Below are positions 5,864 through 39,100 of a DNA stretch of 64,000 bases, one piece after another (the stretch's first letter is position 1; each line of letters opens with the position of its first letter). This DNA is from Tubiluchus corallicola. Taxonomy: Eukaryota; Priapulida; Priapulimorpha; Priapulimorphida; Tubiluchidae. Position numbers and translations under genes: made by a program. Where the stretch lies: assembly GCA_030141605.1 (NCBI GenBank), contig JAQGDQ010000100.1, positions 434,001-498,000 on the forward strand, in the 5' to 3' direction. Below the pieces are notes generated by a model, which searched no databases, had not been told where the DNA came from, and was given only the letters and a program-made list of their open reading frames with translations.

Positions 5864-13454
<7,591 letters not shown>

Positions 13455-14797
13455 GATGGAGTCTGCTATTGTGTGAAAACGTCAATGTGTCACTCAATAA
13501 TAAATAACAAAATTCTTTAAGCTATATAAAAAAATATTGGTCAAACAAACAACAACATATAGCACAACGTTCAGTGGGCGTACAGTGTTCTATTGTTTGA
13601 TGGTAACGGACGCAAAAAATGTTTTTATTTATTTTGATACGCAAAGTGAGTTTTCATACTTTCCCCGCCCAAGGGGACGAAAAGGAGTTGGGAATTAGGA
13701 ACTTCTATATCCCTTCCGATTCCTTTCTTTTTAGACACTGTCGGAGATTGTTGTGCGCCGTTTACCGCACAATAAGATAGTGGGTCTTGCCAATATGCCG
13801 CACGAGCTTGTTGGGCTGGCCCATATAGCGCACAATAACACTTTATCAGAAAATGAACTACAACGAGATACGTGGTTATCAAAATAATGATGCACGTCGG
13901 GTTTCATCCTTGTACATGTCAGGTGTAAAGACCTGCTTGGGTGTACGTAAGCAAATACAAAATGACTTACTCTAGCTAAATATGCCAGATTTTTTTCATT
14001 AAAATGTACAATAATCATGAGGAACGCAGCAACTTTATGGAGATGATAGAAAAGTGTCATGTTGCAGAAACTCCCATGGCAGATCATGTGTACAATGTCA
14101 GGATGATGGCAATGGATCCTGCAATATTTGACATGAGAGACAGAAAATAAAGGTGTTTGAATTTCGATGCTAGCACAATATGTACCTATAAGCTCATTAA
14201 TCATAGCTTGGTCAGTCACCTACTTTACTGGAATCGCATGACAACAATAACAGAATCAGCTAAACTCTTTTGGACTAGAGCCCATATACCAGCCATCGGC
14301 TACACATTGAAATGGGACGATTAAGGCATTTACCCAGCCAATCTAGAACCTGTAGTTGCCCAATGACTGATGAGGTACATGATGAATGATGATGCTTATA
14401 ATACTACTTGCATTTCATTATGCCAAAAAAGTTTTTTTTACATGCACCCAATTTATACGTGACGTCACTGATCTAGCAGTAAGGAACATGCCTTGTTACG
14501 GACTAACTTCTTTTATATCTACATTGTAATCTTATTTTAATTTTGTTAGTCATTAAATTACATGCATACGGCTAGAAATAAAAAAGCTTGCCTAAAATTT
14601 TGATTAATAATTTGCAATTTCAGCCCGGAATGAAACTCAGACTCAGTGTTCTACTTTGGTACTATATACTGCTCTTATTTTCCGGATATTCGACGCGTGC
14701 GCAATAGCGTAAATACCGTTTATGGGTTAGCGCGCAAAACGGCGTCAAACAGTAATAAAGTTGTTTTTTCAGATGGCGCAAACTTTGCAAATAAGCG
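13455..14797. promoter_or_regulatory. Divergent REEP5-PLPBP intergenic/promoter region
   Basis: The start codons of REEP5 (-) and PLPBP (+) face away from each other across 1.34 kb. GC-rich, CpG-containing patches lie at 13660-13840 and 14685-14760, against AT-rich surroundings. The second contains GCGTGCGCAATAGCG, resembling an NRF-1 site, 80-110 bp before the PLPBP start. No clear TATA box is placed for either gene. A 162-codon minus-strand open frame (13731-14219) shows no recognisable domain and I do not call it a gene. Confidence 0.45.
13758..13839. repeat. Three ~31-bp imperfect repeats in the REEP5 upstream region
   Basis: Three copies of a CC-ATAT-CGCAC-A core lie at about 13758, 13790 and 13820: CCGTTTACCGCACAATAA, CCAATATGCCGCACGAGC and CCCATATAGCGCACAATAA. 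They sit 300-390 bp upstream of the REEP5 ATG. Regular spacing suggests repeated binding sites or a decayed minisatellite. Confidence 0.45.
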
Positions 14798-17700
14798 ATG
14801 TTAAAGTTACCAATGACTAAAATGAGTGAAAATGTTGGGAAATCATTGCGCTTGGTTCTAGAAAAGATCAAAATAGCTTCAGAAGCAAGGCCACAGGTGT
14901 GTAACCGTCACGCTTTGTTATTTCTGTGTGGTTCACAGGCAAACTTACTCAGCGATGTGGCAAAAGACCGGTGGTCATTCACTAAGCTTAATTAAAAGGA
15001 CCCTATAAAGATATAAGTTAAGATTGATCTGTAAACTGCAGAAGACTGGTTATTATTATTAGAAAAGAAAATGTGACATTAAAATAGTAATATCTTATAT
15101 AATGATATTACTGATTATTTTGATGCAGTGATATTAGTGATCCACAAAAATGGATGAAGATTATGTTTCTACCTTGGTGCAAAGCTTGAAGGAATGATAG
15201 ATCTGCACAAAATTTAAACTTTAATTACAGTGTTACCCCAATCTTAATTATTTTATTAACATTTTTTAGCATGTATTTAACTGCTAATTTATGTTCGGTT
15301 GATATCTGTCTATGAAACTATAGAAAGAAAAAGGAAAGATTAAAAAATTGCATGAATTAATATGTTTGTGCCATCACCTTCTGCGCAGCCATAACGTGAC
15401 ATCTGTGACATGATTACCTGTGGCTACCTGGACTGGCTCTAGCTAGTTTAACACCCCAGGGAAAAATATTTTTGGTGCTCCCATTTCAACTGCTTCGCCA
15501 TGGTCCAACTTCACTAGGGAACCCTCCCCAAAAGCAAATTTTTGTTGTAAACAATAAAAAGTTTCGGCATCTTCAATTCATATACATAACTTTGGTTGCA
15601 AGTACTTTATTATCGAATCTTCTTACTGTTCAATGTTCGCCAGCTTTTTACCCTTTTGTCTTCTATATTACGCTCCTGCTCCTGAAGGCCTTGATTTCTT
15701 ACAGCTTTATCTGTTTAAATTAGATAAATGCTATAGCAAGAATCTTTTTTATTAATGGAACAATGTGCTGCTGTTAATGGTTGCTTATACAGGACACACA
15801 CAGTGAGAAAATTATCTACAACAACTTGTCTGAAACACATTTTTCCTCGTCTGTCGGCTCAATTGATTCTGTTTCGGAGAGGTTTTTATTAAACATGCTT
15901 AATTTTCTATCATACGAACTGATCCTGTTCTTGTACAGTATCAAATCTGTCTCAGACAAAATCAGGTCACTCTTGTAAAATGCAATCTTTTTGGTCATGT
16001 GTCATCAAAGTAAGTTGTTCATAACAGTGTGCTTCATACAAAAGCTATCCTGTGCGAGCAAATTTGCCTGGACAAATTGATGCAGACAGATTTTTTTATT
16101 ATGTCCGACTAGTATACATCTCTGGTTTGCTGCTTTATGCTTTATACAGTATAAACTATGGGCAAAAAACAGGGAAATGCGTCAGTGTAGTCTGCCTGAA
16201 ATGATGTGATCTTAGAGTGACAGATAAAGCCAAAAGTAGTTCTAATTTGTTTTGTTGCGGGAAAATAGCTTCATGCTAGTGTGGATTGATCTTACATTTT
16301 GGCATGAAAATAATGAAAGAAATTGTTTCATTTAATCAGTGTTGTGCACTTGAGCATTTACACTTGTACTATGTTGTTATTTATGACAACCTTAAAAATT
16401 AAAGAATTACTTTTACAAAAATACAGCATTTTCTGGTGCACAGTAGCAGTCTTCATTAGGAAATATATGTAGAATGATTTAAAATTCTGAACGAAATAAA
16501 AATATTATGGCAAAATCATGAGTATCTATTAAAATAAAAATCACAGAGGAAGAAAAATGAGAAATGCAGTGTATCATTAGTGATTAATTAAAGAAGCAAT
16601 ATATTTTAAAAGCAAAATGTTCTGTGGAACAAACCCTAATTAGAATATTAGCAAATTAGCTAATTAGCAAAGCCAAGTTAGAATATTTTACAATTAAAGC
16701 AGATACAACTAAGTGCATTTTAGTGATGTTTCTAGCTGGATATCAGATTCTTGCTCTATTAAGCATCAAAGCTGTAGTTAGTTTCTCTGACGTTGATAGC
16801 CAAAACACTTTTGGGTTTTTGTTGGTGTATGTCTTCCTTATGCTTTCTAATTTTGACTTTCTCACTATGACTGCTAATGTGCAGTAGAAACTTCATATAT
16901 TTCAATAAAAGTTTAATAAAACTTATTATGTAACGGGTTGCTTATGAAACAGATATGGTTCTTATGGTTAAAGAATTTAAAAGCTGTACTTAATCACTTC
17001 TAGAATTTGTAGCCCCCAAAATTTTGTGACGTAGGCAATTGTCTAGTTTGCTTAGCGGTAGAGCTGGCCCTGATTATTACTTATGCATGTTTGAAAAAAG
17101 TGACACAGATTGACTAACCAAAAGCACATGTTGCTGTTATTTAAAGCTAATACCATACCATTATTTAAAGATAAAACGGTATCAAGACTTTGTCCTGAAT
17201 GTGGAATGTTCCAAATCTTATACATTTTATTGTTGAGCCTTTCATTTTATTTTTTGCATAGCATATTTTTAATAAAATTTCATTTCTGTTGTCAGTTGTC
17301 GTTTACTTTAAAATTTCAGCAAGTAGTTGGTACAAGATATTTTTTTCTTTTATTGACATATTATATATTTCTTGTAACTTTGTGAAATGAATGCCATTGA
17401 TTGTAGCTGACAGATTATATGAAATTAATTTTTTTTAGGAATTACGAAGAGGATTGCCCCGGTTAGTTGCTGTGACTAAAACCAAACCAAAGCATCTTGT
17501 GAAAGAAGCTTATGAGCATGGACAAAGAAACTTTGGTGAAAACTATGTAAGAAACATGTCTTTGATTAACTTAATATGTGACAGTACTGTGCATCGATTG
17601 GACATAGTCGTTTACTAACATATCAGGTGATTTTGTGTAACCGCCGTATTATTAGGAAGTGACTATTTAGGGCTAAGTTTTTGCAGCACCATGGCACCAC

Positions 17701-20700
17701 AAATGAGTTGGGAAGAAATTCTTGTTATTAGTCCAGTCGAGTTGACAGAAGCAGAGGCAGACAACTTATATTCACCTTTGATACAATTTAAAGTTTCTGA
17801 AGAAGACAATGTAAAACATTTGTTTCATTTGTTCTGTGTTACACAAAAGGTGTTGGAAATTAAAGGTGGAGAAGCTGAAGTTTACATGGATGAACTAGAA
17901 AAAATGGCCGAACAACAAGGACAAGATAGCGCTGAACGAGAAAAAGAACTTTTGAGTGAAATCGAAGAGCTAAAACGTGACATTTTACGATTAGAGGATG
18001 TAAAGGGAGGAGATAAAGATGTCCGATCTCTAAGAAATGATTTACGAGATCTAGAAAGGCAAAATAATTTGTTGCGACAAGAAATACAGGGTGTTGAACG
18101 TGAACTTAATGCTCAGAATCGAAGTGTTGAGCAGCATATAATGAGAGCTGAAAAAGCAGAGACTGAACTACGTGAACTGCGTCTGGACAATGAACAGAAT
18201 AAGGCTTCTGTACTAGAACTGCAGCTTCAACTGGAAACTCAAAGAGAGGCAATATCGTCTAAGCGTGGTGATGACGCTGAAGCTAGAAGTAAAATTCGTG
18301 CTAAAAATAAAGAGTTAAGTGAAGCTCTTGATGAAATTACTAACCTGACGGAAGCAAATGATGAACTTCAGAGCAAGTGCGAAGAAATGAAAAACAAGTT
18401 AGAGGATGCTGTTCGTGAAATGGATAAAATAACAGAAGATTACGTTGCGATAAAATCTGCTTTAGATAATGCAGATTCTAAACATGATCACGTTGTGCAG
18501 GAAAATGAACGGCTTAAGGTGCAGTTGGAAGATTTCAATAAGCAGCAACGTGAAAAAACTGAGGCTGATGATGCTGTGATGATAGCAGTTAATGCCAAAG
18601 TAGATGAGTGGAAGCAGATTCTTAGTAAGAAGGATGACGAAATTGTAGAATGTAAAAGTGAAATATTTCATCTTGAAGAGCGTCTAGCTGCCATGTCAAT
18701 TGATACAGACAGAGAATATATTTCAGTGCTTACAAAGGCTGTTGAAGAAAAGGATAAACTGATTGAAAGTTTGCAGCAGCAATTAAAGGATGCAACAGCG
18801 GAAATGGAATCTAATGCTGCAGCCTTGGAAGATCTGCATCAGCAACTTGAAAGTAAAGCTGGAAGTGTAGGCACTGACAAACAGCAAGAAAAGGTTGTGG
18901 CACTTCGAAGTTCTCTCAAGAAAAATGAAACTCTGATAACAGACTTGAAAACAAGAGTCACTTTGGCTGAAGCAGATGCAGCTGAAAAAGACAAGCAGTT
19001 AACGGAAGCGCTTACTAGAATGCGGCAGTATGAGTCTGGGGAATATGGGTTAGCCGAAGCTGTTTCAGAAATAAAGCAGCATAAAGCTCAAATCACAGTC
19101 AGGGATAGACAAATAGAAGAACTCGTGCAGCACTGCAATAAAATTGAAGTCAAACAGAGTGAACTTTGGGAGGAAAATCAACACTTACGTGAAAAGCAGA
19201 ACTTGGATCCATCAGAACCCTTGGATTTTCACCAGAGCTTGGTGGCCAGAAAGCAACAAGATAGAGTACTTGTACTTGCCTTGGAAAAAGAGTTGGAAAC
19301 TTTAGAAGAAGAGAGAATTAACTTGAAAAAACAAATTCGGCAACTTGTTCAGTTAGCTGGTAAGAGGGTTATGGAGCTAGGTTCAACTTCTGAGGGCCTA
19401 GAAGTGACAATTTCTCATTTGTTGAAGCCTGCCTTAAAAGATATACGTAGTGGGAAATTTGACTCTGTAGCTGTCACACACACAGATGTTTTTAAACAAC
19501 AAGTAGAATCAAAAGTATATCAACAACAAATTAGAGAACTCGAACAGGAAATCACAGATTTAAAGAAAGCTATTACTACTAATAAGCATTTTGAGGAACG
19601 CACACATGAGTTAGAAGAAGAGAACAAGAATTTGGAACAGGGCTTAAGAGAAATACTGGAAGCATTGAAGGAGCATCAGGGTCAGAATTCTAAAGGTAAT
19701 GTGACTACCATTCTCTGTCCCACTTTGGAGAAAGTTTTGTCCTTGCTGGAAGCAAAACTGCAAGCTGAAGCTGGCAATTTAGGATCTCCATTTAAATCAC
19801 AAGCCGATGAATTACGTGGCCGTTGCGAAGAATTGCGGAATGAACTGAGACTTGCACATAATGAAGTATTAAGAATTACAACTGAACGTGATAATGCTCT
19901 AGAAAAAATTTCGGAGCTTCAGATGTACAAAGAAAAAATGCAGCAAAAAGAAATTTATAGCATAAAAGCAAAATTTTTACAATTACCACAAGATTTAGCT
20001 GCTAGTAGCAGTGAAGTTATTAATAACTTAAATGAACATTTAATTGAAACTGTAAATGAATTGCTGTTGAAGCAAAGGACTATTTGCGACATGGAAGAAG
20101 CATTGGAAGAATCTAGGCGCAAATTTGCTGTTGTAGTTCACCAGCAAGGACTTGTATACAAGGATTTTACTTCATCAAAGGAACATTGGGAGCAAGCTAC
20201 ACAGCAATTAGAATCAAGAAACAGTGAGCTGTTGGAAAAGAATGCGATTGCGGAAATAAGAAGTGCAGAATTTGATCGTTTGTTAGATTCTTTAAGTCAG
20301 GATGATGTAGAAGTAAGAAGGCGATTGGCTGAATTAACCCGCAAAGTTACAGTTTTACAAGTCAATGAGAGCAAGCTGTCTCGAAAGTACACAACTATGC
20401 AAGACTTAGAGAAAGTCCTGCGCAAAGAGAATACCAAATTACAGAGTGAAGTTCTTTCAATGGAAACTACAGTAATGAAGCGCCTTGGATATTTACAAAG
20501 ACACAAAGACATGAGTGCGTACAAGATTCGCGGTTTGCAACAAGCTTTGGAAAGGAGTGTTCCTGAAGATGAGCTAATACTGGCTAACAAGCATTTCACT
20601 GAGTTGACAGAAAAATACAGGGATGTTTTGCAGAAAGTGAACACGTTGGTAGACAAAACTGAAACTACATCTAAATTAGAGATTGAATTAAATTCCTTAA

Positions 20701-23700
20701 AATCTGACAAATATTCTCTGGAAAAGGAGTTAGAAACAGCAAAAGAGAAGTTGCATGCACTAGATGCAGCATTAGAATTCTTAAAAAAAGGAGGAGTGGA
20801 AATTGTCCAGGATACTTTGTCAAATGAAACTATTACAAACTTGTCAAAACAAGTAACACTACTGGAAATGAGAGAGTTGAATGAAAGACAAAGAGCCGAA
20901 CATTCGGTTAGATTGTATGAACAACAGAAAACTACGTTGCGAGAAGTAGAAGATAGAAATGCAGAACTTGAACAGAAATTTGCAGAAATTTCAAAAATGA
21001 ATTTGCAGTATCAGAAAGAAGATAGAAGGCTTAGAGAGGAATTGGAAAACAGTGTTACTAGGGCAGAGAGCAAAGCAGATAAATTGAGAATAGGTAAATT
21101 GGAAGAGTCTGAGTCTACATTGAAGGAAGAGGTAGAAAAGCTAAGAGAGATAGCCGATGTGGCTTCATTTCAGCGTGATGCTAAGAATTTTGCGCACATA
21201 TCAAGAGATACAGAGTTATTTTCCATTAGGCAGCTGCTGTTAGATTTCCAGTCGAATTCTGATGATAAATCAACTATAGCTAAACTTCACCATCAGTTAG
21301 TAGCTTTACAAGTAGGTGAAGGAACAGCTGTTAGGAAATTAGAACATACTCAGAATGAACTGAAAAAGGTGCAAGCACAGCTTTTAAGAACTGAGCAGAG
21401 ATTAGATGAACGAGAAGAGAGAATGTTTTACATGGGGCAGGATTCACGTAGCAAAATTAGATATTTGAAAAAAAATTTGCATGATGTCCGAAGGAAGTTT
21501 GCAGGAGCCATTCCTTTACTGGAGCAAGAAAAATTTTCTGAGACGTTTTTTAAGTTGCAAGTTGATAAACAGAAAACTGAAGAAGAGCTGGCTTTGGCCT
21601 TGTCTGAAAGATGTAAAGCAGATTCAAAGGTAGCTGAAATGGATTTTCAACAAAAAGGACTGCAGGAACTCATTAGAACACTGAAAGATGGCAGAGGAGC
21701 CACAAAAATTACTGAGTGGCATGCAAAGATGGAAGAAATTCGTCTAAACGAATTGAAACTAACCCGCGAAGTAAGCCAATTGAGGCAGCAAATTCTCCAC
21801 GTGACACAGCTTAAAAAAACTGCTGAAGATGGCATCAGAAATTTGGAGAAAAAGCTTGTGCAGCAAGCTTCTATGCAAGACCAGAGACAATTAACATGGG
21901 AGGAAAGAGAATTGGCACTTGAAGAAAATGTTGCTCGTTTGGAAAAACAACATTGCCTTATTAGTAGCGCAGCTGCAGAATTTGAAGAGGCCATGGGTAG
22001 TATGCCAGATCCTGATGAACCAGTAGCTACTCAATTGGAGCAAGCAGTTACTACTATTAAACGAAATGTGAAAGTGATTCTTGAGAGTCGAGCAAAAAGC
22101 AAAGAATTGCAGTCAAAAGTTATAACACTAGAAGCAAAATTAAAAGAGGTGGATGACAGTTTAATATCAAGAGAACGAATAATTTCTGAACTGAGACTTC
22201 GTTTGCCGGTAACAGTTGAAAGGGAAAGGACTGTAACAAAAGCCAAGGAATCAGGCAAACCGAAATTTCACAAATCAACTGAAAGTGAGTCAAAGCAAGG
22301 TGTTACGATTGCCAAAGAAACTGTCAGTAGCTTGCGGGAGCGCTTGGAGCAAAAACAAGATACTATTCTTAAATACCAAGAACTGCTTAAAGATGCTCGT
22401 GATGAAGTGCGACAGTTAGGTCTAAAACATGAACAAGAATTAAAAGCAATGCACGGTAAATTACAAAAACAGCAGGACCATGAATTTCAGCATTTTAAGC
22501 AAGCAGCAATGGCATTAATTAATAAGCCCGGTGTGCAAGCACCAACTAACAAGCAGGTCGCTCAAGTTAATGAACTTAAAGCCCTTGTTGAAGAGCAAGA
22601 ACAATCTATTTGGGCTTTGAAACATAATTTGGATGAGTCTAACATAGAAATTAATAGGTTAAAATTGGCCCTAGAGGAGCGAAAGTTGAAAATAGAACAA
22701 GAAAAAAAGTTAACAGAGGAAAGTAGTTTGGGAAGTGAAGTAGCCATGGAACAAAATTACGATAAACTGCAAGCAAGAATTACTGAACAGGCGGAAGAAC
22801 TGGCACTGGTTCACCAGCAGCTAGAGGAACAGAGAGCAGTTAATATGCGCGCTCCTTCTGCATTATTGAAACAGACTGTAGAAAAACTAAAAAATCAGTT
22901 GATTTTGAAGGAGAAGCAGTATGATGCTCTTAGTAAAGCTTTGAGTGACGTCAGGGCTGATATGGTGCGTACAGCTGAAGATAATATTAAATTGCATAAC
23001 AAAGGAATATCTGATGACATTCAAACTCTCATTACTAAACATACGCAGGAACTGCAGAGTCGTAATAATGATTTAGAAGCTCTTGTTGACAAACTGAATG
23101 GTCAACTGAAAAAATATCAGGAAGCAGAACCAAAGACCAAAGATGTTAAAATAGATGTAAGTAAGAAAGATTCAATTATTCAGTCTTTAAAATCTGAAAA
23201 GGAAAGACTGGAAAGTGAAGTGCATGAGCTAAAGCAAAAATTTCAGCGACTTGTATCACAACGTAGTGTGAGGACTGTGGGGCTTGATCATAAAAATGAA
23301 GTGGCTGAATTGCGTAGAAAAATAGAACGGCTTGAACAACAGCAGCAATCACGGCAGTCTGTAAAAACTGATTTTTCTTTGTGGGAAGAACGGAAGAAGT
23401 ATGAGAAAAATATTGAGCAGCTAAAGAGAAAATTGAGTTTGAAAGAGGTAGAATGTGCTGAACAGCAGAAATCTGTATCAACTTTAAAGGAAATGGTAGA
23501 ACAAAATGAGAAGGAGAAAACAGTATTAAGGAATCGCCTTCGTGATGCCCAGAAAACTGATGGAGTACCACTCGGAACTGAAGAAAAAATTCAAGAACTA
23601 AAGAAACAAGCTTTTCAGCTAGAAGAAGAAAATTTAAATTTAAAAAGACAAGTTTCTGTTGTGGCTCAAGCAGGTGAGTTGCATCAACACCGACTGGAAA

Positions 23701-26700
23701 ACCAGTTACTTGCAGAAAAGATAGAAATACTTGAAAAACAGTTGGAAAAACAAGCAAAGGGGACAAAATTGAGTTCTGAAGTATTTCAAGAGTTTAAAGA
23801 AAGAGAGCAAAAACTACAACGGAAAATTATTAGTCTTTCAGAAGAAAATATGAATAAACAGTTTGACCTTGAGAAACTAAACTCGGATATTCCTAGATTA
23901 AAGGAAAGAGTTAAGGATCTGGAGCAATATATTGATGTATTAAGAAATGAAAAAGAGGAAAGGCCAGATTCTACTAGATCCACTAGCAGTGGTGGAATTC
24001 GGAAAATTGGTACAAGTGGGAAAACCACTATAGAATTGGAGAGAACAATTAGTTTGATGAAGAAAGTTATTGAAAATCTTAAAACAGAAAATGAAAGGCT
24101 AAAAAAGACATCTCGCCCTATGAATGAAAAAATCACTTCTCTTCTGGAACAAAATGAGAAACTAAGTTCTGAGCTTCAACAGCAAAAAGAAGCAAGTGAT
24201 CTCATTATGTCTAAGATATCTTCTGAAAATGAAAAGCTCCGACTTCAATTTGATAAAGAGAAAAACATTAATGAAAAGTTGAGAATAGAGATGCAAGAAT
24301 TGAGCATGAAGGAACGTAAACTTCAGAGTGATTTACAAGAAGTCAGAAGTGCTGCTCCAGTTAGTAAGGCAAAGCGATCGACAGTTGCATATCGGATGAT
24401 GGAAGACAAATTACAAAGTTTGGAAGCAGAGCTCAGCTCCAAATTGCAGGTGTTGGACAAATGTGAGGAGGAAAAACAGCAGTTACAAGAGCAGTTGACA
24501 ATGTTTCGAAATGTTGCGTCACCCCCATCTAGTGAAGCATACAGGTCTCTAATGTTGGAGAATGTAGACTTGAAGTCAGAGCTTCGTGATGTCCAACTAG
24601 AAAACATGAAGTTACAACGAGAGATTGAGCATCTAAAGCTTGACGCAGATTCCCATACACCTCCTTAAAGGATCTTAAAGCATGGATTCAAACAATCCAT
24701 CTAGCAAAAGGCTCAATACGAATTATAGTTGTCAGGGTCGGCAGGCAATTTGAAAATGATGCCAATATTCATTTAACCCATATTTTGTTTTTGCAATTCC
24801 CTACTTCAGTCACATCTATCAGTATATGTTTCTATGCTTCAAATCCTAAAACACTGGAATATATTTGCTGATTGAGATAACAAGTTTTTCTATCAAAGTT
24901 TCGACCTGCAGAGGCTTGTTAGAGCCTGAATCTGCTGTTTGCTAAGATGAGTAGACCAACCAAATACTAGTCTAAGCAAGCATCCATTTTATTGCACCAC
25001 TACCATGGTTTTGACTATTTATGATATTAGTTTTACTGGGCTGTGATCAAGTATTTTACTTTTTTATTGAATTTGCATAAAAATTTTGTGCAGCTTTGCT
25101 TAAATGTCTGTGACACATGGTGTACAATTAAACATTATGCTTACTGCCTGTCGCATGTGAGAGGGTGTGTGCTCGAATGTGACTATATGAGTGCATGTGC
25201 GGTGTTGCATGCATACTTATGCACAAGCCATGCATCTGTGTTTTCCTTTAAGACCTTAGGTTGAGCAAGTAATCGCTAATTTTCAAACATTTGATAACTT
25301 AACTCCTTCCCAGTGTTTTAAATTTTGGAAGCTAAATTTTGTTTTACTTTGTATATGTAGTTGCTGTGTTTTGTTGCCAACACTCATAAATTATATTGTT
25401 TGCCAAAAATCAGTCATCTGGACACATCACATGTATAGTAATACCCAAATTGATCCTCTCGCTCACATTAGTTAGTCTAATGGTTTTGTATTATTTCATC
25501 ATGTGTATGTGTGTATAGCACTTATAATGCAGTGTGCTCGCGGCTAAGCTTGTAATACAAATTAACCCTTTTTATATTTTCTAACCAATCTTTAGTAAAA
25601 TAATAGTGTTTATACATTTATATTCTGTAGAAAAATGTTGAAGTTCTTGTTTTCTGTTTTGTTTGAGATCACCAGCATAATGATATACTATATAATATGG
25701 TATAGGCTACTATAAAAATTATTAAAATGTTCTTAAAGTGTATCAGTTAAGTGGTCTTTGGTCTGATTGGCACATATTAAGTTTGTTGAAGTACATGTAA
25801 CTAAATTGTAGCTTGCCAGCTTTTAAAAGTGATACGCTCACTGGTAACAGGTAATATTTTTAAATTTACTAGTAACATGGTGTCTTTACTGATTTTAAAG
25901 CAGTTAAATAAAGCAAAAGTGAGCAAAAATTAGTAATTTTTAGAAAAGACAAAGTTATTGTCTTCAGGTGGATGCACAATAATATAACTTTTCGTTATTA
26001 GTAGGGAATAGTTTGTAGGCTTTTAGTTAGTATGTACTGGTCAGCTTAAATTTTCAAAAATCCTCAAAACTGCAACCTCAATTAAGTAGAATCCATGCTA
26101 TGAAGTTGATTGGCTGTACAATGTTTTAGGCTACTTTACATTTTTAAAAAGACAAGTTTAATTCCCAACAAGAACAGAAGAACACAAAAAAGAATTTACT
26201 GAACTCATGATAATGAAATGCTAATTTCAGTTGGCAATGTCTGACCAGACCTAAGTTGAACTTTTAGCTTACTCTCTGATTATAAATTTGCATTTTTTCC
26301 AAATCAGGATGTTTATGTTTTAAGTGCAGCACAAAATAAGTTAAGCTAGTTACTTGAGTTACCGTGATATGTACGGCTTCTAGAGTGCAATTCTGTCACG
26401 TGGATCATCGATAAATTAATGGGTAAGGGCTTCTTTTAAGTTTTTCATATAAATTATCATTCTAAAATGTTTGTTTTCTGTAAAAGTTTTTCTGCACACG
26501 TTGCTGACTTCAAGTGACCTGTTAGTTTTGGTATTACAGATTCAAGAGCTGGTCGACAAGTCCAACGACAAAGAGGTAGCGTACATAACTTTACCTATTT
26601 TTACATTAGAATTGCATATTTGTGCCTACAAAAACACCTACAATTAAATGTATGTGACTCCTACAGATACAAGTTTATTCATTAGGCTCGTACTCGTCCT

Positions 26701-29700
26701 ATAATTCCTATAAAACTATAACAATATCCTATAATTCCTATAAAATCATGAATTCTCAATGAAATGAGAATGTTATTGGTATTTTTCGCACGCATAACCA
26801 CAATTAGATATTATAAGTTTTTTATCTTCATGATTTGGGCATTTTAGTAAATGTAAATAACAGTTGTCTGTCGCGAAGTATGTATGTTTTTACAGAGTTG
26901 GTATTCTCATTGCGTGGTTGATGGTTCTGGTGTATGCTCTAATGGCGTGTGAACACAAGATTCGAAGATCCCCGAACGGTTAGTACAAAGTTTTTTATGT
27001 CTGATTATTGTGACGTGAAATGGATAGTTTTTAGGATCACCCAACACCTAATAAGGTGGCCCAATGATAACTGTATGCATTCTGTGGACTTTCGTTGATC
27101 CAAGCAGGGGTGCACCCATTTTGCCAATATTATTGGTGCACCCATATCGCTGTTGTTTATATCACACGCTGTTTTGTGTATATCGCTGTGTGTAGTGATG
27201 TTCTGCAATAATCGTGCTAAATTTTGTTATTTGACGAATCTTTTGTGGCTGCTTATTCATGTTTGCGTCTGGCCTCTTTAAATATTCTAAAATTTTAAGA
27301 TGTCAGAAAATTTTCGAACTTTTTACGATTTCCAATCAGTGTTTTGCGATTAAACATTCATTCCTTTCATTTAAGTTCGTCAATTTCCAGATATTACATA
27401 TATTATCATGTTCTTTAACCAATGTTAGTTCGTTTGTGCTAGACATTGTGTATCATTTCCGTAAGGGCTCTTCCTGCTCATGTTGTGTTTGTAAAATGTA
27501 ATTTTGAACAATTCCAGGTGGCGAAAGAGCATACCCAGAAGTGTATAAGCCGCTCAATGACAATGCCAACTTCAACCAAAGAATGCTCTCCTGTTACAGG
27601 TAGGAAAAATTATTTTCTTTTGCAAAGAAATTGTGAAAATCGCTGTAGTGTAAAGTTAGAAACTTTTGTTTTTAAGGGAAAATGTCCTATAATTCCTATA
27701 TTTTTTCAAAAAATGTCCTATATTTTTTTAGAATAATGTCCTATATTTTTGAAAAGTAGAGTACGAGTCTCTAATATTGCTTTCACATACAATTTGGCTC
27801 TTTCATTAAACTTTCAGTGTCTGAATAGTTTTATCAGTGACAGAGGCATGCTTGTAGCCAAATGCCGATTTTTATAGTTTTTTCAGACTTAAACAATTTG
27901 ATTTACATGTTTCTTCAGCTGTTAGAAAAATGCACCGATATAAGATGGCATTTCATTGGACATTTACAAAGAAACAAAGTTAACAAGTTACTAGGTATGT
28001 GATGAAGTGGTCTACTCTTAAACATGGGCTGTGTATTCATTGTTAAAACTACTGTCATTTGCACTTGATCTGGAACAGGTGTTGTCACATGGTTTCTAAA
28101 TTGTTGTTGGAAATCTGGTGAAAATGCCAAAGTTTGTGCCTATAGCGGCTTGGTGCTGTGGAATCATTTCAATAAAGACTACTAACCTATGCCAGTATTT
28201 GCACTCACTTGCATTAACAAAGTTATCAAATAAAATTACAAATGCACTTTATATTGGCATTTACCTAGTTTTCTGTATAAATATAATATGATGTAAATCC
28301 AGTTTGACAAGCCCAGTTTTGTCATTTTAACTTTTTTTTAATTTTTGTAGGTGTTCCAAACTTGTACATGATAGAGACGATTGATTCAGAAAAACTTGCA
28401 TGTGCTCTGGATGCAGCTTGGGGAAAGAAAAATACAGGCAGCAAACTTAAAGTGATGGTTCAAGTGAATACAAGTGCCGAAGAAAGTAGGTGTTTCTTGT
28501 GCAGTTATTGAGGAAGTGCTTGTAGAGCCCCATCTGAGCTCTTTCTGTGAAATTTTTCACTTAAAGATAGGATTCGAAATGCGTGTTGCATGTTGACTAT
28601 TTCAATGTGTTCGTGAACACTATGGATATTAACAAAGCTCATGGTGCGTCTTCTGCCATTTTGATTACTGCTTCATGAGAAATTCCTAACAATTTTTTGG
28701 AAGCCGTTTATCTGTCGAAATTTCAGGACCACAGTAATCAATGAGAAATTATAATGATGGCATTAGCTTATTATTATATTACGTAAATTGTCTACATATT
28801 TTGGCTGCATAACATTTTGTAGCAGAGTGAACAGTACGAAATGTACGATTATTTGGTGAAAGAACTTCAGCTACTTTCAGACTAACATAAAGACGTATGC
28901 TTCTCTAGCCTCTCAAAAGCTCAATTGGAAGAAATGTTATTGTGTGTATGTCCCAAGTAAACAAAATTGACCTGACCAGTTGAAAGGAGTCTGTTAATTT
29001 GCATGTGGTGTATTTTAAAATTAGTCCATTCCATTTTGTTTTAACCATGAAAATGGTCACTGGAAAATTGAAAACCCACGAAATCCACTTAGCAGTTGCC
29101 ACTTTCCGTTTGCGTATTGTGCGAAGTATACTGACACAATAGCTATCGTTTTTGGCTGAATATGGGTCACACATTATGCATTACGTACACATGGAAACAC
29201 TTCCACTAAATACAAACTGTAGTAGTCACGTTTTCCTCATCATGGGCAAAACTTAATGATTTTATAAGCACTCAAATAGCTAATCAGCCAATTACCTCTC
29301 CCAAATAGAAAATTTTCTAGCCATGTAATTGTAATAGTATACCTAATTGTACATAGACCCTTTGTACAAAAAAAACTGAAAAAGCTAAATAATGATATGG
29401 AATTGCTTTTTCTGAATTGCGTTTGGTGTATGTTAATGGGTACACATTTTAAGTGATAGATTTGACTAGTAATATTAAATTGTTTTTGAAAAAGCTACCT
29501 GATTGTTTGTTTTAGGTAAGCACGGGATCAGCCCCTCAGAAGCGCATAAACTAGTTGCTTATGTACTAGAGACTTGCAGTAACCTTGACCTTGTAGGACT
29601 CATGACAATTGGTGCATTTGACCATGACTTGTCTACAGGACCTAATCCAGATTTTTTGGTAAGAGAATACATGTGTAATCAGCCACAATGTGCTATTACG

Positions 29701-32700
29701 TGCAGCTTGTGAAAGACACGGTTATTGAAATTTCAAAATGTTTAGTATTTTCGTTCTTTGTTATGAAAATCTGCAAGCTATGCATCGATGCAACTTATTA
29801 TCCGAAAATATGCTGTTACGCTTATTGTTTAACCAAGTTTGTGTAGCTGTGCTGCTTCAAACTAATATACTGGGTTGCATTGCCTGCTTTCTGTTGATAG
29901 AGCATAAATTTGTGCTGCTCAAACTGGTACCTGAGTTTGTTCCCTACTGCCCCCTCTCGAAGAAAACAATGTAAATATTGCAAGAATATCACATGTATTG
30001 TCATAACTTTCACGGGAACAAATTCTGAAATGTCTTTACACTACTAAAGTACACATTAAAACTTAACCGGCACTTGCTTGCTCTGATTAAAACTGCAGCC
30101 CTTCCCACAAAAAACCTGTGCCACCTTAGGCGAACTGTCTCCTTGTCGCCTTCATGCTGCTGGCTAACAGTGTACAAATATCGTATGTTTGTTTACCTTT
30201 AACAATTTCAGTGTATTCAGCAATGAAAAAATTGAAAATGTACTCTAATGTGTTTTAATTATCAGTTTAATTAAGTACTACAGCTGTAATACAGCATAGT
30301 AGCTTTCAAAAGGATAGTTGGCAGTTGCAAATTATATTTAGAGCAAAATCTAAAATTATAAATCAATAAAGAAGTTTCTGTATCTAATCCTGATAGAAGC
30401 ATGTTTAAAATGAAAAATAAAATTTTACTCAATCCATTTTCATCAGTTTCTTTCTTTGTTAGACAGTGAATTGCTAGCAATGCTATTATTAGAGTTCTTT
30501 TGAAATGCTTACTCTAGATAAACAGTTTTTCACTGTTCTTGTGAATCTAATCGGTTTTGTTCCAGCTTTAATTTTTTGGTATTATATGGAACCAAAAATA
30601 TGTACCAACACTGTTTGCTATATTACTAAAATCACTTACACACACTGAATATAATGTCAATATAACTGCCAATTATACTGAATGTTTCTAAGCAACTATC
30701 AATATAACTGATGAAATCAAATTTAATGTAAGGCAGCAAAACAAAAAAATTCATCAATTGCATTGAGAAAGTTATTAACAATTATTACTGAGTGTGTGTA
30801 TAGCCCTTATAGTAATCGGACAATTTTATTTTAGAAGGTGTTGCCAGAAAGTTGTTGGCATAAGCGTCAAGTATTTCGTCAGAGCTAAATCATTTTCAAA
30901 AATACAAGTTGATGTAAATACACTCATGACATACATTTTGAGTATGAATTTTATTTTCAGTGTCTTCTAGACTGTCGAAGAGATGTTTGCGAGAAACTTA
31001 AACTTAGTGTTGACAGTTTAGAGCTCAGTATGGGAATGTCAAATGATTTTGAACATGCTGTAAGTAAATAGATGGCTGTAAATTTGATACTAGCTGTTAG
31101 CATACAATGTTACAAGTTTACATGCATTCAGTCTTTTGCAGATTAGGGGCCGGATTAACGTATCTTGCCTACGAGATGCACCTACGCATGTTTGCATACG
31201 AAAACCTTAAGCACGTTTGGCTTTTTGTCTTAAGTACGGTATTAGGTGCCATTCACGGTAATCTTACATTATGAGTATGTAGCTTGATGTTTCAAGTCAT
31301 ACTCCATTTTGATCTTCGTGCTAAAATATACACTTTGTTACTGTTGATAGTGCATTATCATAGCATTTGGAAATGAATCCCAATTATATTATGTTTATTA
31401 CCTATACATGTTTAACCTAGCAGCATCGTGCGTGTTACAAACTTATTTTTTCATTTGTTGTTTAGTTGACTTACTGATCACCACGAACTGACAGCGTATA
31501 TTACGAACCGACAGCATAAATTAAGAATTGCTCTTTCAATTTGCTTATTTACTTAATTAGTTTGTAATAAAAAACATAAGCCTGATAAAGCTTCAATTAA
31601 TTGTAACTGTAATTGTAGTATGTAATTGTAATTTGTAATCCAGTATTAACGTATAATTCATATTATTCATGTAGTTACAGAATTATATTTACATTATAGT
31701 AATGGATCTACAGATTATGCAGCTAGAGTTACGGAATAAAAACATTATAGTTACAAAACTACGTAGTGGATAAAAACACAAAGCAAGAATGCTATACTAC
31801 AATAAAGCATATATACTCAATATAATAAACCACAGACAGGAAGAGATGAAAAATAAAGAGAAAGAAAGAGGAAAGAATGAAAAAGTAATTCTGAAGAGAT
31901 TTGTGACGTAGTAGCATAAAATAAACGATCATAAAGCAATCTGTCAAGGGATGTGCAGGCAACTTCAAAATTTAACTAAAGTATTATTGTAACAAACGCT
32001 GCTGTGGCAAACATTGGTAAAAGGTGAACTGCTGTATATTTAAAAAGACAAATAGCTTTATATGATTTTAATCACTACTACACCTATCACTATGTCGTAA
32101 TTGGCAATTTATAATTAAGTAAATTTTTCACTATTATCTGTATTAGAAACTAAAAAGTCGGACATCCTTGGTCAAATATTTAGCAATTAGGAGCATATTT
32201 ATTACTTTATTTTCGCTGTTTTATTACTAGGTTGCCTCGCTACGACAGACTTACTGGTGCTCCTGACCACTCGTAACCTTTTGCATGTTTCTACGACAGT
32301 TTTGAGTCTCGTGAATCTCACACAAATCCTTAAGTGCGCGTAATTTATGCATGCGTAACTTCTCTCGTAAGTGTGGTACGTGAATTACGCGTAAATGCTT
32401 TCACATGCGGAGTTTAAGTGTACTAAGCATTTCATACTTATGAATGATATGTGAATCGTAACTACTTTCTTAAGCTTGCCTAATCACTCGTGTGCACAAA
32501 GCATGTGCTTAGCACGGTACATAAATCCAGGCTCAGGATATGTGCTAAAAATAAATCTGCCTTCCTTTATAGTTTCTCTCATAAATTTTTTGTATGTAGT
32601 TCTGCATATTGTTAGCCAAAGTGCAGCACCCACCCGTAGAATCAGTGCAATGCAGATACTAGTGAACATGATTGGAATATATGTCATTGAAATGGATAAT

Positions 32701-33649
32701 CTTTTAAGATGAGACAGTGAACTTGTTGAAGTGTCTTAGCCTATTCAGCTATGTATAAATTCTGCTTAGATCGTTGGTAATTCTGTGGAGGCAGTATGGC
32801 GGATGTGAATAAAACAACCTTGGCCACCAATCCATTTAATGACCAACTGTTTATTTTGTTTGCCATGTTGTCTCTACGTAATTATTGATCTTAAGATTAT
32901 ATTTTTCTAAAAGGCGGCTCATGATATACCAGAACTTTATCTTTGAAGTTCCTCTATATTATTTCTTACTTTGGCATTATCTAGTCAATTTAAGTGCATC
33001 TGAATGTGGCTTAGACACAGACCTCTGCCTGTTCAATATGTGTTCTTAAGATTGTCCTTGATAATGAGGTATGTTCCAGTCCTGCCTCAAGTATTTGCAT
33101 TACGTCTCACCTTTGTTTAAATTCAGTCTGTGTTGACTGTATTAACTGCAGACAGGAAATAGTAGAATACTTTTACTCAGATACTGGATTTTGAAGATAA
33201 TTTTCAATGTCAGAAAAAAGTTTGTCACTCTCACTGCCTCATTTCTTATGCAATAAGACATTTATTTTCTGTTAAGCTGTAATCAAATGTCATAATTATT
33301 TATAATCACAGAAAAGTAATAGCAGTTATAGAACACATTACGCGTAGCACAAAATTCCAATGCTTGAAAATTTCATCTTGGATATGCAATCTTGATAGTG
33401 GTAATATGTTCCTAAAAACCTATCTAAAATTCTGTCTTTGTTTCTTCAAAACATGTGCTGAATAGTTAATTGTCCTGTGATTTTGCAATAATAGAGAAAC
33501 ATTTTGTTATACAGATACTACTAGGAAGTACAAATGTTCGAGTTGGCAGTACTATATTTGGAGCACGTGTATATCCCACAAAGTCTACCTTAAGCGGCAC
33601 AGAAACCTCATCAAAAGATGGAGCAGCTGTTTTAGGTAGTTCCAGCTAA
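14798..33649 (+). CDS. PLPBP: PLP homeostasis protein PLPBP/PROSC, YggS family (8 exons)
   Basis: Exons: 14798-14896, 17439-17546, 26540-26575, 27919-27994, 28351-28485, 29516-29658, 30961-31059, 33515-33649. All are GT-AG with continuous frame, giving 276 aa (human 275). Exon 2 carries [10 protein letters not shown]; the first Lys of TKT is residue 47, equivalent to the PLP-binding Lys47 of the human protein. Other family blocks are [76 protein letters not shown] and [13 protein letters not shown]. Family knowledge: a fold-type III barrel protein that binds PLP without catalysis and buffers cellular vitamin B6. The start could instead be ATG 14813 or 14822; an out-of-frame uORF begins at ATG 14774. 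Likely poly-A signal AATAAA at 34132-34137. Odd feature: intron 2 is 9 kb and contains CEP290. Confidence 0.96.
15428..17072. mobile_element. Degraded hAT-like element in PLPBP intron 1
   Basis: Left end CTGGACTGGCTCTAGC and right end (complement CAGGGCCAGCTCTACCGC) are imperfect inverted repeats of a hAT-type terminus. The right end is clear: GGTAGAGCTGGCCCTG at 17057-17072. No convincing 8-bp target duplication or transposase frame was found, so the two ends may come from separate insertions. Confidence 0.35.
17691..24668 (+). CDS. CEP290: CEP290, full-length intronless reading frame
   Basis: A single uninterrupted frame of 2,325 codons, nested in PLPBP intron 2 on the same strand. Family blocks run collinearly with vertebrate CEP290 (human about 2,479 aa): MSWEEI N-terminus; [53 protein letters not shown] near residue 300; [29 protein letters not shown] near 970; [19 protein letters not shown] near 1190; [32 protein letters not shown] near 1435; [15 protein letters not shown] near 1500. 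The product is almost continuous coiled coil. Family role: scaffold of the ciliary transition zone and centriolar satellites, linking microtubules to membrane. The start ATGG has a strong context (CACC) and lies 4 nt after a TTTTTGCAG splice-acceptor motif. A poly-A signal AATAAA lies at 25907-25912. No poly-A tract or target duplication is evident, so a retrocopy origin is inferred from intron absence only. The C-terminus is shorter than in human. Confidence 0.96.
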   Translation: MAPQMSWEEILVISPVELTEAEADNLYSPLIQFKVSEEDNVKHLFHLFCVTQKVLEIKGGEAEVYMDELEKMAEQQGQDSAEREKELLSEIEELKRDILRLEDVKGGDKDVRSLRNDLRDLERQNNLLRQEIQGVERELNAQNRSVEQHIMRAEKAETELRELRLDNEQNKASVLELQLQLETQREAISSKRGDDAEARSKIRAKNKELSEALDEITNLTEANDELQSKCEEMKNKLEDAVREMDKITEDYVAIKSALDNADSKHDHVVQENERLKVQLEDFNKQQREKTEADDAVMIAVNAKVDEWKQILSKKDDEIVECKSEIFHLEERLAAMSIDTDREYISVLTKAVEEKDKLIESLQQQLKDATAEMESNAAALEDLHQQLESKAGSVGTDKQQEKVVALRSSLKKNETLITDLKTRVTLAEADAAEKDKQLTEALTRMRQYESGEYGLAEAVSEIKQHKAQITVRDRQIEELVQHCNKIEVKQSELWEENQHLREKQNLDPSEPLDFHQSLVARKQQDRVLVLALEKELETLEEERINLKKQIRQLVQLAGKRVMELGSTSEGLEVTISHLLKPALKDIRSGKFDSVAVTHTDVFKQQVESKVYQQQIRELEQEITDLKKAITTNKHFEERTHELEEENKNLEQGLREILEALKEHQGQNSKGNVTTILCPTLEKVLSLLEAKLQAEAGNLGSPFKSQADELRGRCEELRNELRLAHNEVLRITTERDNALEKISELQMYKEKMQQKEIYSIKAKFLQLPQDLAASSSEVINNLNEHLIETVNELLLKQRTICDMEEALEESRRKFAVVVHQQGLVYKDFTSSKEHWEQATQQLESRNSELLEKNAIAEIRSAEFDRLLDSLSQDDVEVRRRLAELTRKVTVLQVNESKLSRKYTTMQDLEKVLRKENTKLQSEVLSMETTVMKRLGYLQRHKDMSAYKIRGLQQALERSVPEDELILANKHFTELTEKYRDVLQKVNTLVDKTETTSKLEIELNSLKSDKYSLEKELETAKEKLHALDAALEFLKKGGVEIVQDTLSNETITNLSKQVTLLEMRELNERQRAEHSVRLYEQQKTTLREVEDRNAELEQKFAEISKMNLQYQKEDRRLREELENSVTRAESKADKLRIGKLEESESTLKEEVEKLREIADVASFQRDAKNFAHISRDTELFSIRQLLLDFQSNSDDKSTIAKLHHQLVALQVGEGTAVRKLEHTQNELKKVQAQLLRTEQRLDEREERMFYMGQDSRSKIRYLKKNLHDVRRKFAGAIPLLEQEKFSETFFKLQVDKQKTEEELALALSERCKADSKVAEMDFQQKGLQELIRTLKDGRGATKITEWHAKMEEIRLNELKLTREVSQLRQQILHVTQLKKTAEDGIRNLEKKLVQQASMQDQRQLTWEERELALEENVARLEKQHCLISSAAAEFEEAMGSMPDPDEPVATQLEQAVTTIKRNVKVILESRAKSKELQSKVITLEAKLKEVDDSLISRERIISELRLRLPVTVERERTVTKAKESGKPKFHKSTESESKQGVTIAKETVSSLRERLEQKQDTILKYQELLKDARDEVRQLGLKHEQELKAMHGKLQKQQDHEFQHFKQAAMALINKPGVQAPTNKQVAQVNELKALVEEQEQSIWALKHNLDESNIEINRLKLALEERKLKIEQEKKLTEESSLGSEVAMEQNYDKLQARITEQAEELALVHQQLEEQRAVNMRAPSALLKQTVEKLKNQLILKEKQYDALSKALSDVRADMVRTAEDNIKLHNKGISDDIQTLITKHTQELQSRNNDLEALVDKLNGQLKKYQEAEPKTKDVKIDVSKKDSIIQSLKSEKERLESEVHELKQKFQRLVSQRSVRTVGLDHKNEVAELRRKIERLEQQQQSRQSVKTDFSLWEERKKYEKNIEQLKRKLSLKEVECAEQQKSVSTLKEMVEQNEKEKTVLRNRLRDAQKTDGVPLGTEEKIQELKKQAFQLEEENLNLKRQVSVVAQAGELHQHRLENQLLAEKIEILEKQLEKQAKGTKLSSEVFQEFKEREQKLQRKIISLSEENMNKQFDLEKLNSDIPRLKERVKDLEQYIDVLRNEKEERPDSTRSTSSGGIRKIGTSGKTTIELERTISLMKKVIENLKTENERLKKTSRPMNEKITSLLEQNEKLSSELQQQKEASDLIMSKISSENEKLRLQFDKEKNINEKLRIEMQELSMKERKLQSDLQEVRSAAPVSKAKRSTVAYRMMEDKLQSLEAELSSKLQVLDKCEEEKQQLQEQLTMFRNVASPPSSEAYRSLMLENVDLKSELRDVQLENMKLQREIEHLKLDADSHTPP
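24669..26539 (+). other. CEP290 3' flank / remainder of PLPBP intron 2
   Basis: No further conserved exon is seen. It contains the probable CEP290 3' untranslated region with AATAAA at 25907-25912, about 1.24 kb past the stop, and is otherwise AT-rich. Confidence 0.5.
26685..27770. mobile_element. Short-TIR element carrying two exon-like segments
   Basis: Left end GGCTCGTACTCGTCCTATAATTCC and right end complement AGACTCGTACTC...TATAGGACAT are inverted. Both ends hold repeated TCCTATAATTCCTATA-type units pointing inward. The element lies in PLPBP intron 3 and encloses two splice-bounded coding segments. The family is not identified and exact ends and target duplication are unclear. Confidence 0.45.
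26896..27599 (+). pseudogene. Two exon-like segments of an unrecognised membrane protein
   Basis: Segment A (26896-26978) follows TTTTTACAG and ends before GTTAGT. Segment B (27518-27599) follows ATTCCAG and ends before GTAGGA. The frame is continuous across the 539-bp intron. A encodes [17 protein letters not shown], a good transmembrane helix, then [10 protein letters not shown], a basic stop-transfer-like patch. B encodes [19 protein letters not shown] then QRMLSCY, a polar tail. The phase does not match PLPBP exon 3 (phase 0), so these are not simple alternative PLPBP exons. They could be a captured host-gene fragment or part of an unannotated nested gene. No function is assigned. Confidence 0.4.
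31146..32534. mobile_element. TIR element (~1.4 kb) in PLPBP intron 7
   Basis: Left end AGGGGCCGGATTAACGTATC and right end complement TGAGCCTGGATTTATGTACC match at most positions. Subterminal regions are rich in TTAAGTGCG/TACGTAA-type short palindromes. No transposase frame is present. The superfamily is not assigned because no clear target duplication was found. Confidence 0.5.
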
Positions 33650-36119: not shown

Positions 36120-39100
36120 CTAAAAGGATACAACTCGTAGTCCACGCTCTATTGGATCAACAATCATTAATCCTCTAGGGAGATAAATAGTTTTGTTCTG
36201 CTCTTGGATAAACCGCGAAATTTTTTTCAAGCACTGAAATCATAAGAAATGTTTAAATTCACAGCAAAATACTACTTACATAAAACTGGGCAGTGAGAAA
36301 AGTGAGCTATGAAAAGCCTGGAAATGAAAAAAATGGTCAACTGGTGGAAAAGTAGGCAATGGAAAAAACTGAGACAATGAGAAAAGTAAGGCTAACAGGA
36401 GATTGGGCTATGAAAAATGAGCAATAATAGCAAGCCTCCACATTTCAAACATTTATATAACCCAAAATTGTTCTCGAGCTATTTGGTTTGCATAAGCTAT
36501 AGTAATAACACAATGTTTTGTGTAAAATATTATAAATACGAAGTTCCAAAATTATGTCCTAAATTCTGCATTGTATGGTTTAAAATACACTATTATTTGA
36601 ATAAGATTCTGTACTCATGGATTCGTTTTATTTTTGGCTATTTTCCAAGCTAGATTTTGCATTTGGTTTATTTTTATCAAGAATGTCCCTTAAAATGACT
36701 CCATCATCTGGCAGCCCCGCAGCTCACATACACCCATGAGTCTGTGACATATTAAAATTAAATTAAAACATTTTTTAATATAGTAGAACAGCAGTTGTAC
36801 CAATATAATTTTTGGAAGAATAAATGTTGCCCGATGAATAAACGTGAACTTCACAGTGATACTTATTAATTATCAGTTTCATAGGAATGAAAGTCTGTTC
36901 TCGTTTGCATAAGCTATAGTAATAACATAATGTTTTGCGTAAAATACTACAAATACGAAGTTCCAAAATTATGTCCTAAATTCTGCATTGTATGGTTTAA
37001 AAGACAATATTATTTGAGTAAGATTCTGTACTCATGGATTCGGTTTATTTTTGGCTATTTTCCAAGCTAGATTTTGCATTTGGTTATTTTTATCAAGAAT
37101 GTCCCTTAAAATGACTCCCATCATCTGGCAGCCCCGCAGCTCACATACACCCATGAGTCTGTGACACATTAAAATTAAATTAAAACATTTTTTAATATAG
37201 TAGAACAACAGTTGTACCAATATAATTTTTGGAAGAGTAAATGTTGCCCAATTCCCGGTGAATAAACGTGAACTTCACAGTGATATTTATTAATTATCAG
37301 TTTCATATGAATGAAAGTCTGTTCGCGTTAGCGTTCACGAAAATAATATTCGGTTATGCAGTCTTTCTTCGTTTAGTTAAGCCTTGTATTTGACTGCCTA
37401 GTATGTATGCTGTTAGTCTATTACCTTTTCATAGCGAGTGTTCATGCATATGTATATGAGGTAAGCAGTAAGGCAGGCCAGGCACCCTTCACAATACGTT
37501 TTAGTTCCAATTTTCTCAGCTTCACCATACATAGCATTAAGTGTGTTGATGGTGTGGTCAAATACTGAAGGTTCCACCTGAAAAAAATTAATGTACATAG
37601 TAAAAGCAAAAATGACTTTTGCATTATGGTTTTGATTCTCATTGCAGTATTATGACTTTGATAAATGTGACTTATTTTGACTACCTTTCCCTCCAGTTCT
37701 GGAGGAAATTTTGTTTGGAATCTGCATATTGTTCCCTCCGAATAATCTCGCTGTATGAATACTTTTGCACAACAGGTTTGAGGCAATCGGTCACTCTGGA
37801 GAAGAAAACAAAAACAAATAAGTTACTACAAGTTATCAAACTTGAGCTTATATAGTACAAGTGAGAGAATAACAATAAAAAATATTAAACACTACTCAAG
37901 ATTCCCAAAGCTAACAAATCAATGCTATATAACAGTTTTATGCGACATAAAAAATATTTTACAGCAAATGAAACCCAGAGATTTTTCATAGTTTATCACT
38001 ATCATATCACATAATAATATTGATTCCATGACATCTTATAACTAACTGTAGTGGATTTGAACGTCGAACCATTCCACCTAAGTAACTTATAGTATTTTAA
38101 GGCTGACTTCTATAATTAAGCTCCATAACACATTATTGGGTAAAGTGTATTCAATAACTACTGAAATTTTTATTGAGCCACTTCTGGCACAGTAATTAAT
38201 AATTTAAACCACAACCAGATTTAACATTGAGCATGCAATGAAAAGTGACATTTTTATAGAAGTTGAAACGTATGTAAGAGAAAGAATTTAGAGGAAACTA
38301 TGTTTATGAGTGGAAAATTAATTTCTAGCAGCATTATTTACATTTCAAATAGTTGTGTATATATGGTACATAAAGTTCAGATGGTAAGTGTTGCACAAAC
38401 TTTTTATTTCACACAAAAGTACCTATAAATCTGTCCACAAAGAAACACAAGACATTTTTTAGTTTTGACAATGTGAAATTTTTAATTTATTAGTTTTTGT
38501 CCATAGAATTAAATACCACCACGATCTGACATTGTCATCCAACTACAAACAACAGCCTTAGAAAAAAATAACTGAAAAATATAAGAAAAAAACTTGACAC
38601 TGTAAAATTCTAGTAAAAATTTTATGAAGACCTTAGACTCTTAGAGAAATCATGGAAATTACCATTCACGTTTAAATCGAGCCTGGAAAGAGTTGTGATT
38701 TCAGTCTCCTACTCGGTCTGCCTCACTGTGGAATTTTATGTTAACAAAATTAATATTTCAGTTATGGTCAAGAAATTCCATAAATTTTACGGTTTGTGAA
38801 TTTTTCTTTCTAATGAATTCGATCTACGCCTACATTTCGTTTGACTTATGCACAACAAGTTACAGAACAGGGTAACATAGGGTCTTCGTTACACCGGCTC
38901 CTACTGACTGTGCAAGAAAACACACACTGCTTCTCCACATCTAAACACAGGTGCACCTTAATTACTGTTTTTTCCTTTATTTAGGACGATACGTGTAATG
39001 CACATGATTGTCGACGAAGCGAAATTATAAAAATAGGGTGGCTGACGCGCGCCGCCATATTGTGGGAGATGAAGGTAGAACATCATTTTCTAGCATATTT

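Follow-up and report, generated by a model that had tools for sequence, protein, structure and literature searches.

An intronless CEP290 inside an intron of PLPBP in the priapulid Tubiluchus corallicola, probably a retrogene that replaced its parent

Vertebrate CEP290 is split into dozens of exons (54 in human), and the locus described here raises the question of how a CEP290 coding sequence came to stand as a single uninterrupted frame within the intron of a different gene. The locus lies in a 64,000-nucleotide stretch of the priapulid Tubiluchus corallicola (GenBank assembly GCA_030141605.1, contig JAQGDQ010000100.1, positions 434,001 to 498,000 of the forward strand), which is called the window below and is numbered from its first letter. 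Our preferred answer, to which we give a probability of roughly 0.7, is that a CEP290 complementary DNA (cDNA) was retroposed into intron 2 of PLPBP and that the intron-bearing parent was then lost, that is, a retrogene replacement leaving an orphan retrogene.

The open frame and its host gene

The list of open reading frames (ORFs) of the window holds a plus-strand frame at 17631-24668 with 2,345 codons and no stop, in which an ATG at 17691 in the context ACCATGG starts a product of 2,325 residues:

17691..24668, + strand: intronless CEP290 coding sequence, 2,325 codons followed by a stop

Only five other open frames in the window reach at least 150 amino acids (aa), with lengths of 237, 205, 187, 165 and 162 aa. 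From the stop-codon frequency of the window (0.065), the chance of an open run of 2,345 codons was calculated to be about 10^-69 for any one start position, or about 10^-65 across all starts. The A+T content by codon position was 46% at the first, 71% at the second and 69% at the third position, and this contrast in composition is a pattern like that of coding DNA.

The surrounding gene, which we take to be PLPBP by comparison with the human PLPBP sequence, has the following parts:

14822..14896, + strand: PLPBP exon 1, GT..AG borders; another in-frame ATG at 14813
17439..17546, + strand: PLPBP exon 2, GT..AG borders
17547..26539, + strand: PLPBP intron 2, 8,993 bases, GT..AG, holds the CEP290 ORF
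26540..26575, + strand: PLPBP exon 3, GT..AG borders
27919..27994, + strand: PLPBP exon 4, GT..AG borders
28351..28485, + strand: PLPBP exon 5, GT..AG borders
29516..29658, + strand: PLPBP exon 6, GT..AG borders
30961..31059, + strand: PLPBP exon 7, GT..AG borders
33515..33649, + strand: PLPBP exon 8, carries the stop codon, GT..AG borders

When joined, the 8 exons gave 807 bases in one open frame of 268 codons plus stop, and 7 of 7 introns had GT..AG ends. The CEP290 ORF is on the same strand as PLPBP, 144 bases separate the end of exon 2 from its ATG, and intron 2 without the ORF measures 2,015 bases, with 356-2,542 bases for the remaining six PLPBP introns. The CEP290 ORF is a nested gene, wholly within an intron of an intact host. 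A first-pass annotation of this DNA had described an intact, intronless frame of 2,325 codons inside PLPBP intron 2 and had argued that some 7 kb could not stay open by chance; the frame was indeed open throughout and placed between exons 2 and 3, and the probability over all starts bears out the argument about chance.

Identity as CEP290

The 2,325-residue protein matched one Pfam-A family, PF16574 (CEP209_CC5, a coiled-coil region of CEP290), at residues 1285-1411 (E 1.1e-31, 110 bits, cut-off 25), and a PDB sequence search with it gave zero matches at E<=0.001. The yardstick for the whole length was a human CEP290 sequence of 2,479 residues that is not a database record. The best BLAST stretch set residues 1-2255 (of 2325) against human residues 1-2293 (of 2479) with 37.8% identity, and the alignment started at residue 1 in both, with the N-terminus from ATG 17691 set against the human MPPNINWKEI. 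Global alignment gave 892 identities in 2,292 columns and a score of 3839, whereas five shuffled proteins scored 312-429 and the reversed protein 537. A rotated-protein null scored 1104-3449 and had no discriminating power, because end gaps are cheap and the scores of rotated copies stay high, so the usable nulls were the shuffled and reversed ones.

The largest query insertion was at most 12 residues, and the ORF therefore conceals no in-frame intron larger than this. Collinearity had been claimed over the whole length in the first-pass annotation, and it held to about human residue 2293 but not over the tail: the single large gap, human 2289-2340 (about 50 residues), is absent from the window protein, the last ~60 human residues were left unmatched, and the final ~70 of the window protein aligned poorly. 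Inspection by eye of 24560-26600 in three frames showed no recognisable C-terminal continuation 3' of the stop. From its sequence, the window protein is a CEP290 orthologue, which shares with vertebrate CEP290 the PF16574 region and the collinear order and differs from the human gene, which has 54 exons, in being intronless and in having a shorter tail; the number of identities over the aligned columns shows no hint of decay. In prokaryote and virus contig collections, 32 and 3 stretches, respectively, fitted a peptide pattern and zero were confirmed as relatives, as expected for such collections.

Intron content of other genes in the genome

CEP290 works with a transition-zone module that includes Meckelin and CC2D2A, and three ciliary families that gave matches above the cut-off, these two and Rootletin, were used to see how coding sequences are organised elsewhere in the genome. 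Meckelin was found in 9 pieces across 16 kb (open frames of 45-141 aa), the CC2D2A domain in 3 pieces (53-92 aa) and the Rootletin domain in 2 pieces (74 and 80 aa), and no open frame exceeded 261 aa in four genome stretches of 9.1-10 kb, two of them from the Meckelin locus. Intronlessness is not usual among the genes tested in this genome, since three ciliary families are split into small exons, and the presence of Meckelin and CC2D2A suggests from sequence matches that the transition-zone module is present. SDCCAG8 (PF15964) was tried as a coiled-coil comparison and dropped, with two weak matches below cut-off, both in 86-aa frames.

Within the window, the other conserved genes had been credited with 4-8 exons each. 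This was right for PLPBP with its 8 exons, and for the REEP5-, JTB- and GLYAT-like genes it could be followed in outline only, by separate coding pieces:

5867-13481, - strand: several pieces of a REEP5-like gene, one of which matches TB2_DP1_HVA22 with 73 bits
41504-41704, - strand: JTB gene, 40 bits, cut-off 22
51550-54339, + strand: pieces of a glycine N-acyltransferase-like gene; Pfam matches below cut-off

Search for a second CEP290

The assembly to which the window belongs has 343,548,820 bases in 2,344 contigs. A protein search of it to E<=10 (20 of 38 candidates scored) found no second CEP290 and returned the ORF plus one other row, on contig C1673 with an E of 0.9. The latter was rejected as a CEP290 paralogue; its uninterrupted 921-aa frame (C1673:20913-24287) resembles by eye a bacterial pyruvate phosphate dikinase and is therefore taken as contamination, and the assembly probably holds bacterial contigs. 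The PF16574 search of the assembly gave the window ORF alone, from one candidate.

To estimate power, the human CEP290 sequence was divided into 54 equal pieces, which were compared by blastp with the window protein at an E scaled to genome size. At human-level divergence, 14 of 54 pieces (composition-adjusted) or 20 of 54 (unadjusted) were detected at E<=1e-3, and simulated copies, one per level, gave 54/54 pieces at 90% identity, 50/54 at 70% and 17/54 at 50% at the same threshold. This analysis means that an intron-bearing copy in the assembly should have shown, unless the first look of the search dropped it. The window ORF is the sole CEP290 as far as the assembly and the searches reach. 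The first-pass annotation had made its idea of replacement depend on there being no other CEP290, and an intron-bearing gene elsewhere was the case that spoke against it; such a gene was searched for in the 343.5-Mb assembly, with the power estimate alongside, and was not found.

Retroposition and the alternatives

The window CEP290 has zero introns and an intact frame, as a retrogene would. In the scenario that we prefer, a spliced CEP290 messenger RNA (mRNA) would have been reverse-transcribed, complete at its 5' end from the first codon, and the cDNA copy would have been inserted sense-wise into PLPBP intron 2. The copy would have been transcribed from the already active PLPBP locus and would have assumed the role of CEP290 at the ciliary transition zone, after which the parent with its introns would have been lost. 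What is shown is the intact frame starting at residue 1, the orthology, the nesting, the lack of a second CEP290 in the searched assembly, and small exons in PLPBP and three other ciliary families; it is also in favour that intron 2, less the ORF, falls within the size range of the other PLPBP introns. The route by retroposition, transcription of the copy, its function and the sequence in which these steps took place are inferred from this.

Several points weigh against it. The intron 2 sequence 3' of the ORF has no poly-A tract, its runs of A or T being at most 6 bases long, and no convincing target-site duplication flanks the ORF; a 17-base exact repeat (23639-23655 and 26143-26159) was considered as such a duplication and rejected, as one copy lies inside the ORF and the repeat is probably due to chance. 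Both hallmarks fade with age, so their absence is a weak counterpoint, which fits an old event but is just as compatible with introns having been lost in place. The power estimate models blastp scoring and not the search's own first look, and that search scored part of its candidates (20 of the 38). The assembly may be incomplete, since neither a COX1 family search nor an exact pattern for the 5' part of 18S matched anything in it; family searches for GFP and glycosyl hydrolase 6 also gave zero matches, which for these two does not demonstrate absence. Finally, the multi-exon state of CEP290 in other animals enters as background, and the comparison made here is within one animal genome, with which an old intronless state in the phylum or in-place intron loss is compatible. 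The description of the locus in the first-pass annotation as a retroposed or intron-purged copy therefore stood in part: the copy is intact, collinear, nested and the only one detected, but the hallmarks of retroposition, a poly-A tract and a target-site duplication, were not found.

Among the alternatives, the one that survives best, although we consider it unlikely, is that CEP290 already lay in or beside the PLPBP intron with its introns, and that all of them were purged in place through recombination with its own cDNA. This would yield the same intronless frame with no need of the two hallmarks that are missing here, and mRNA-mediated intron loss is an established model (PMC3652778). But every intron across 7 kb would have to vanish with none remaining, and nothing favours a prior nested location, with only 2.0 kb of intron 2 sequence left beside the ORF. 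Somewhat less probable still is that an intronless CEP290, perhaps nested in PLPBP, occurs throughout the phylum, and that the arrangement is old and ordinary there. The missing hallmarks would suit such an age, as would a frame that is intact and the only one found, and nothing direct speaks against it, although the further ciliary families examined in the genome have their coding sequence divided among small exons; moreover, it speaks to when the arrangement arose and not how, and it is compatible with retroposition. Very improbable is a recent retrocopy beside a functional intron-bearing CEP290 that is absent from the assembly. Gaps are possible in 2,344 contigs lacking a match to the COX1 family or the exact 18S pattern, but an entire gene of such size would have to fall into them, a young copy usually keeps its poly-A tail and target-site duplications, and a parent at 90 or 70% identity would have been detectable in 54 or 50 of the 54 pieces.

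Known systems and significance

The closest case found to retrogene replacement of CEP290 is SYCP1 of amphioxus, which has a single coding exon of ~3.2 kb and no multi-exon copy left, and which has a multi-exon 5' untranslated region (UTR), uses a co-opted bidirectional promoter and sits between CHIC and Gsx (PMC5803294). Like CEP290 here, it is a coiled-coil gene that is multi-exon in most animals and is now one coding exon without a parent; unlike it, the CEP290 described here is 7.0 kb long, lies in a host intron on the same strand and is known from sequence alone. The 25 human orphan retrogenes, and the retroduplication with parental loss in tunicates (PMC5408686), are similar in that a retrogene is the only functional copy, although genes and lineages differ.

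Nesting is also well documented. Of the 84,483 retrogenes annotated across 62 species, about 20% are intronic, and a "hitchhike" scenario has been described for nested retrogenes near the 5' end of the host, for example KTI12 in TXNDC12 (PMC5408686), while nested genes typically make up 5-10% of genes in other genomes (PMC10282587). The CEP290 of the window resembles such retrogenes in being intronless, in lying in a host intron near the 5' end and in possibly using host transcription, and differs from them in that it belongs to a very large conserved gene of which no other copy was detected. Each element, retrogene replacement and nesting, is known; for their combination in CEP290, at 7 kb and as the sole copy, we found no earlier report among the papers listed, and none of these reports an intronless CEP290, which does not prove that no such report has been published.

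If the replacement took place as proposed, a full-length 7-kb coding sequence copied from the first codon became the sole copy of a ciliopathy gene. The animal would then carry a natural intronless CEP290, for which introns and native promoter are dispensable, and the nested CEP290 would offer a test of how a nested gene gets its expression from the host.

Possible expression from the host

The short sequence 5' of the CEP290 ATG and the remainder of intron 2 are given as follows:

17547..17690, + strand: 144-base leader, from the end of PLPBP exon 2 up to the CEP290 ATG; best candidate 3' splice site with its last base at 17686 (TTTTTGCAG before the cut, CACCATGG after it)
24669..26539, + strand: rest of intron 2, in which the CEP290 3' UTR is presumed to lie; AATAAA/ATTAAA motifs at 25127, 25721 and 25907

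The leader has 9 AGs, 8 of which were scored with a matrix built from the 7 PLPBP acceptors. The best, with 5.4 bits, was TTTTTGCAG, whose last base at 17686 leaves four bases up to the ATG, and the next had 4.6 bits at 17584. The true PLPBP acceptors scored 0.8-9.9 bits when left out one at a time and 11.3-15.9 bits when included, which places the 17686 site within the leave-one-out range. As 3.6% of the 3,784 plus-strand AGs in the window score at least as high (about 2.2 per kb), an acceptor this good at most 10 bases from the ATG is roughly a 2% coincidence. The idea was formed after the sequence had been seen and the matrix is built on seven sites, so position 17686 is a suggestive candidate 3' splice site with a putative function.

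If 17686 is used, the CEP290 mRNA may borrow a 5' exon of PLPBP or a spliced leader. Exons 1 and 2 end in phase 0, and with four bases before the ATG such a splice would leave CEP290 out of frame with PLPBP, so that no fusion protein would result. It is a tentative idea, and on balance a doubtful one, that CEP290 would be a second product of the PLPBP unit, driven by the PLPBP promoter or given a spliced leader, with splicing to the acceptor four bases 5' of its ATG; if true, an essential ciliary gene would be coupled to a vitamin-B6 homeostasis gene by alternative or trans-splicing. A bacterial-type promoter scan of 17400-17700 gave 0 sites, which is uninformative for animal DNA, and the RNA fold of the leader had a z of +1.4, with 183 of 200 shuffles folding at least as well.

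Other features in the window

The remaining features are listed by position:

36486-37329: tandem duplication of ~420 bases, 94% identity
42620-43865, - strand: remnant of a transposase of pogo/Tigger type, with DDE_1 (E 9.8e-16) in one frame and HTH_Tnp_Tc5 (1.4e-7) in another
55828-57482: tandem duplication of ~829 bases, 98.9% identity; recent or an assembly artefact
58892-59010, - strand: 5S rRNA match that spans the whole model with 102 bits; possibly a pseudogene or a piece of a repeat derived from 5S
62528-62658: ACTAG pentamer array, ~26 copies, 97% matches

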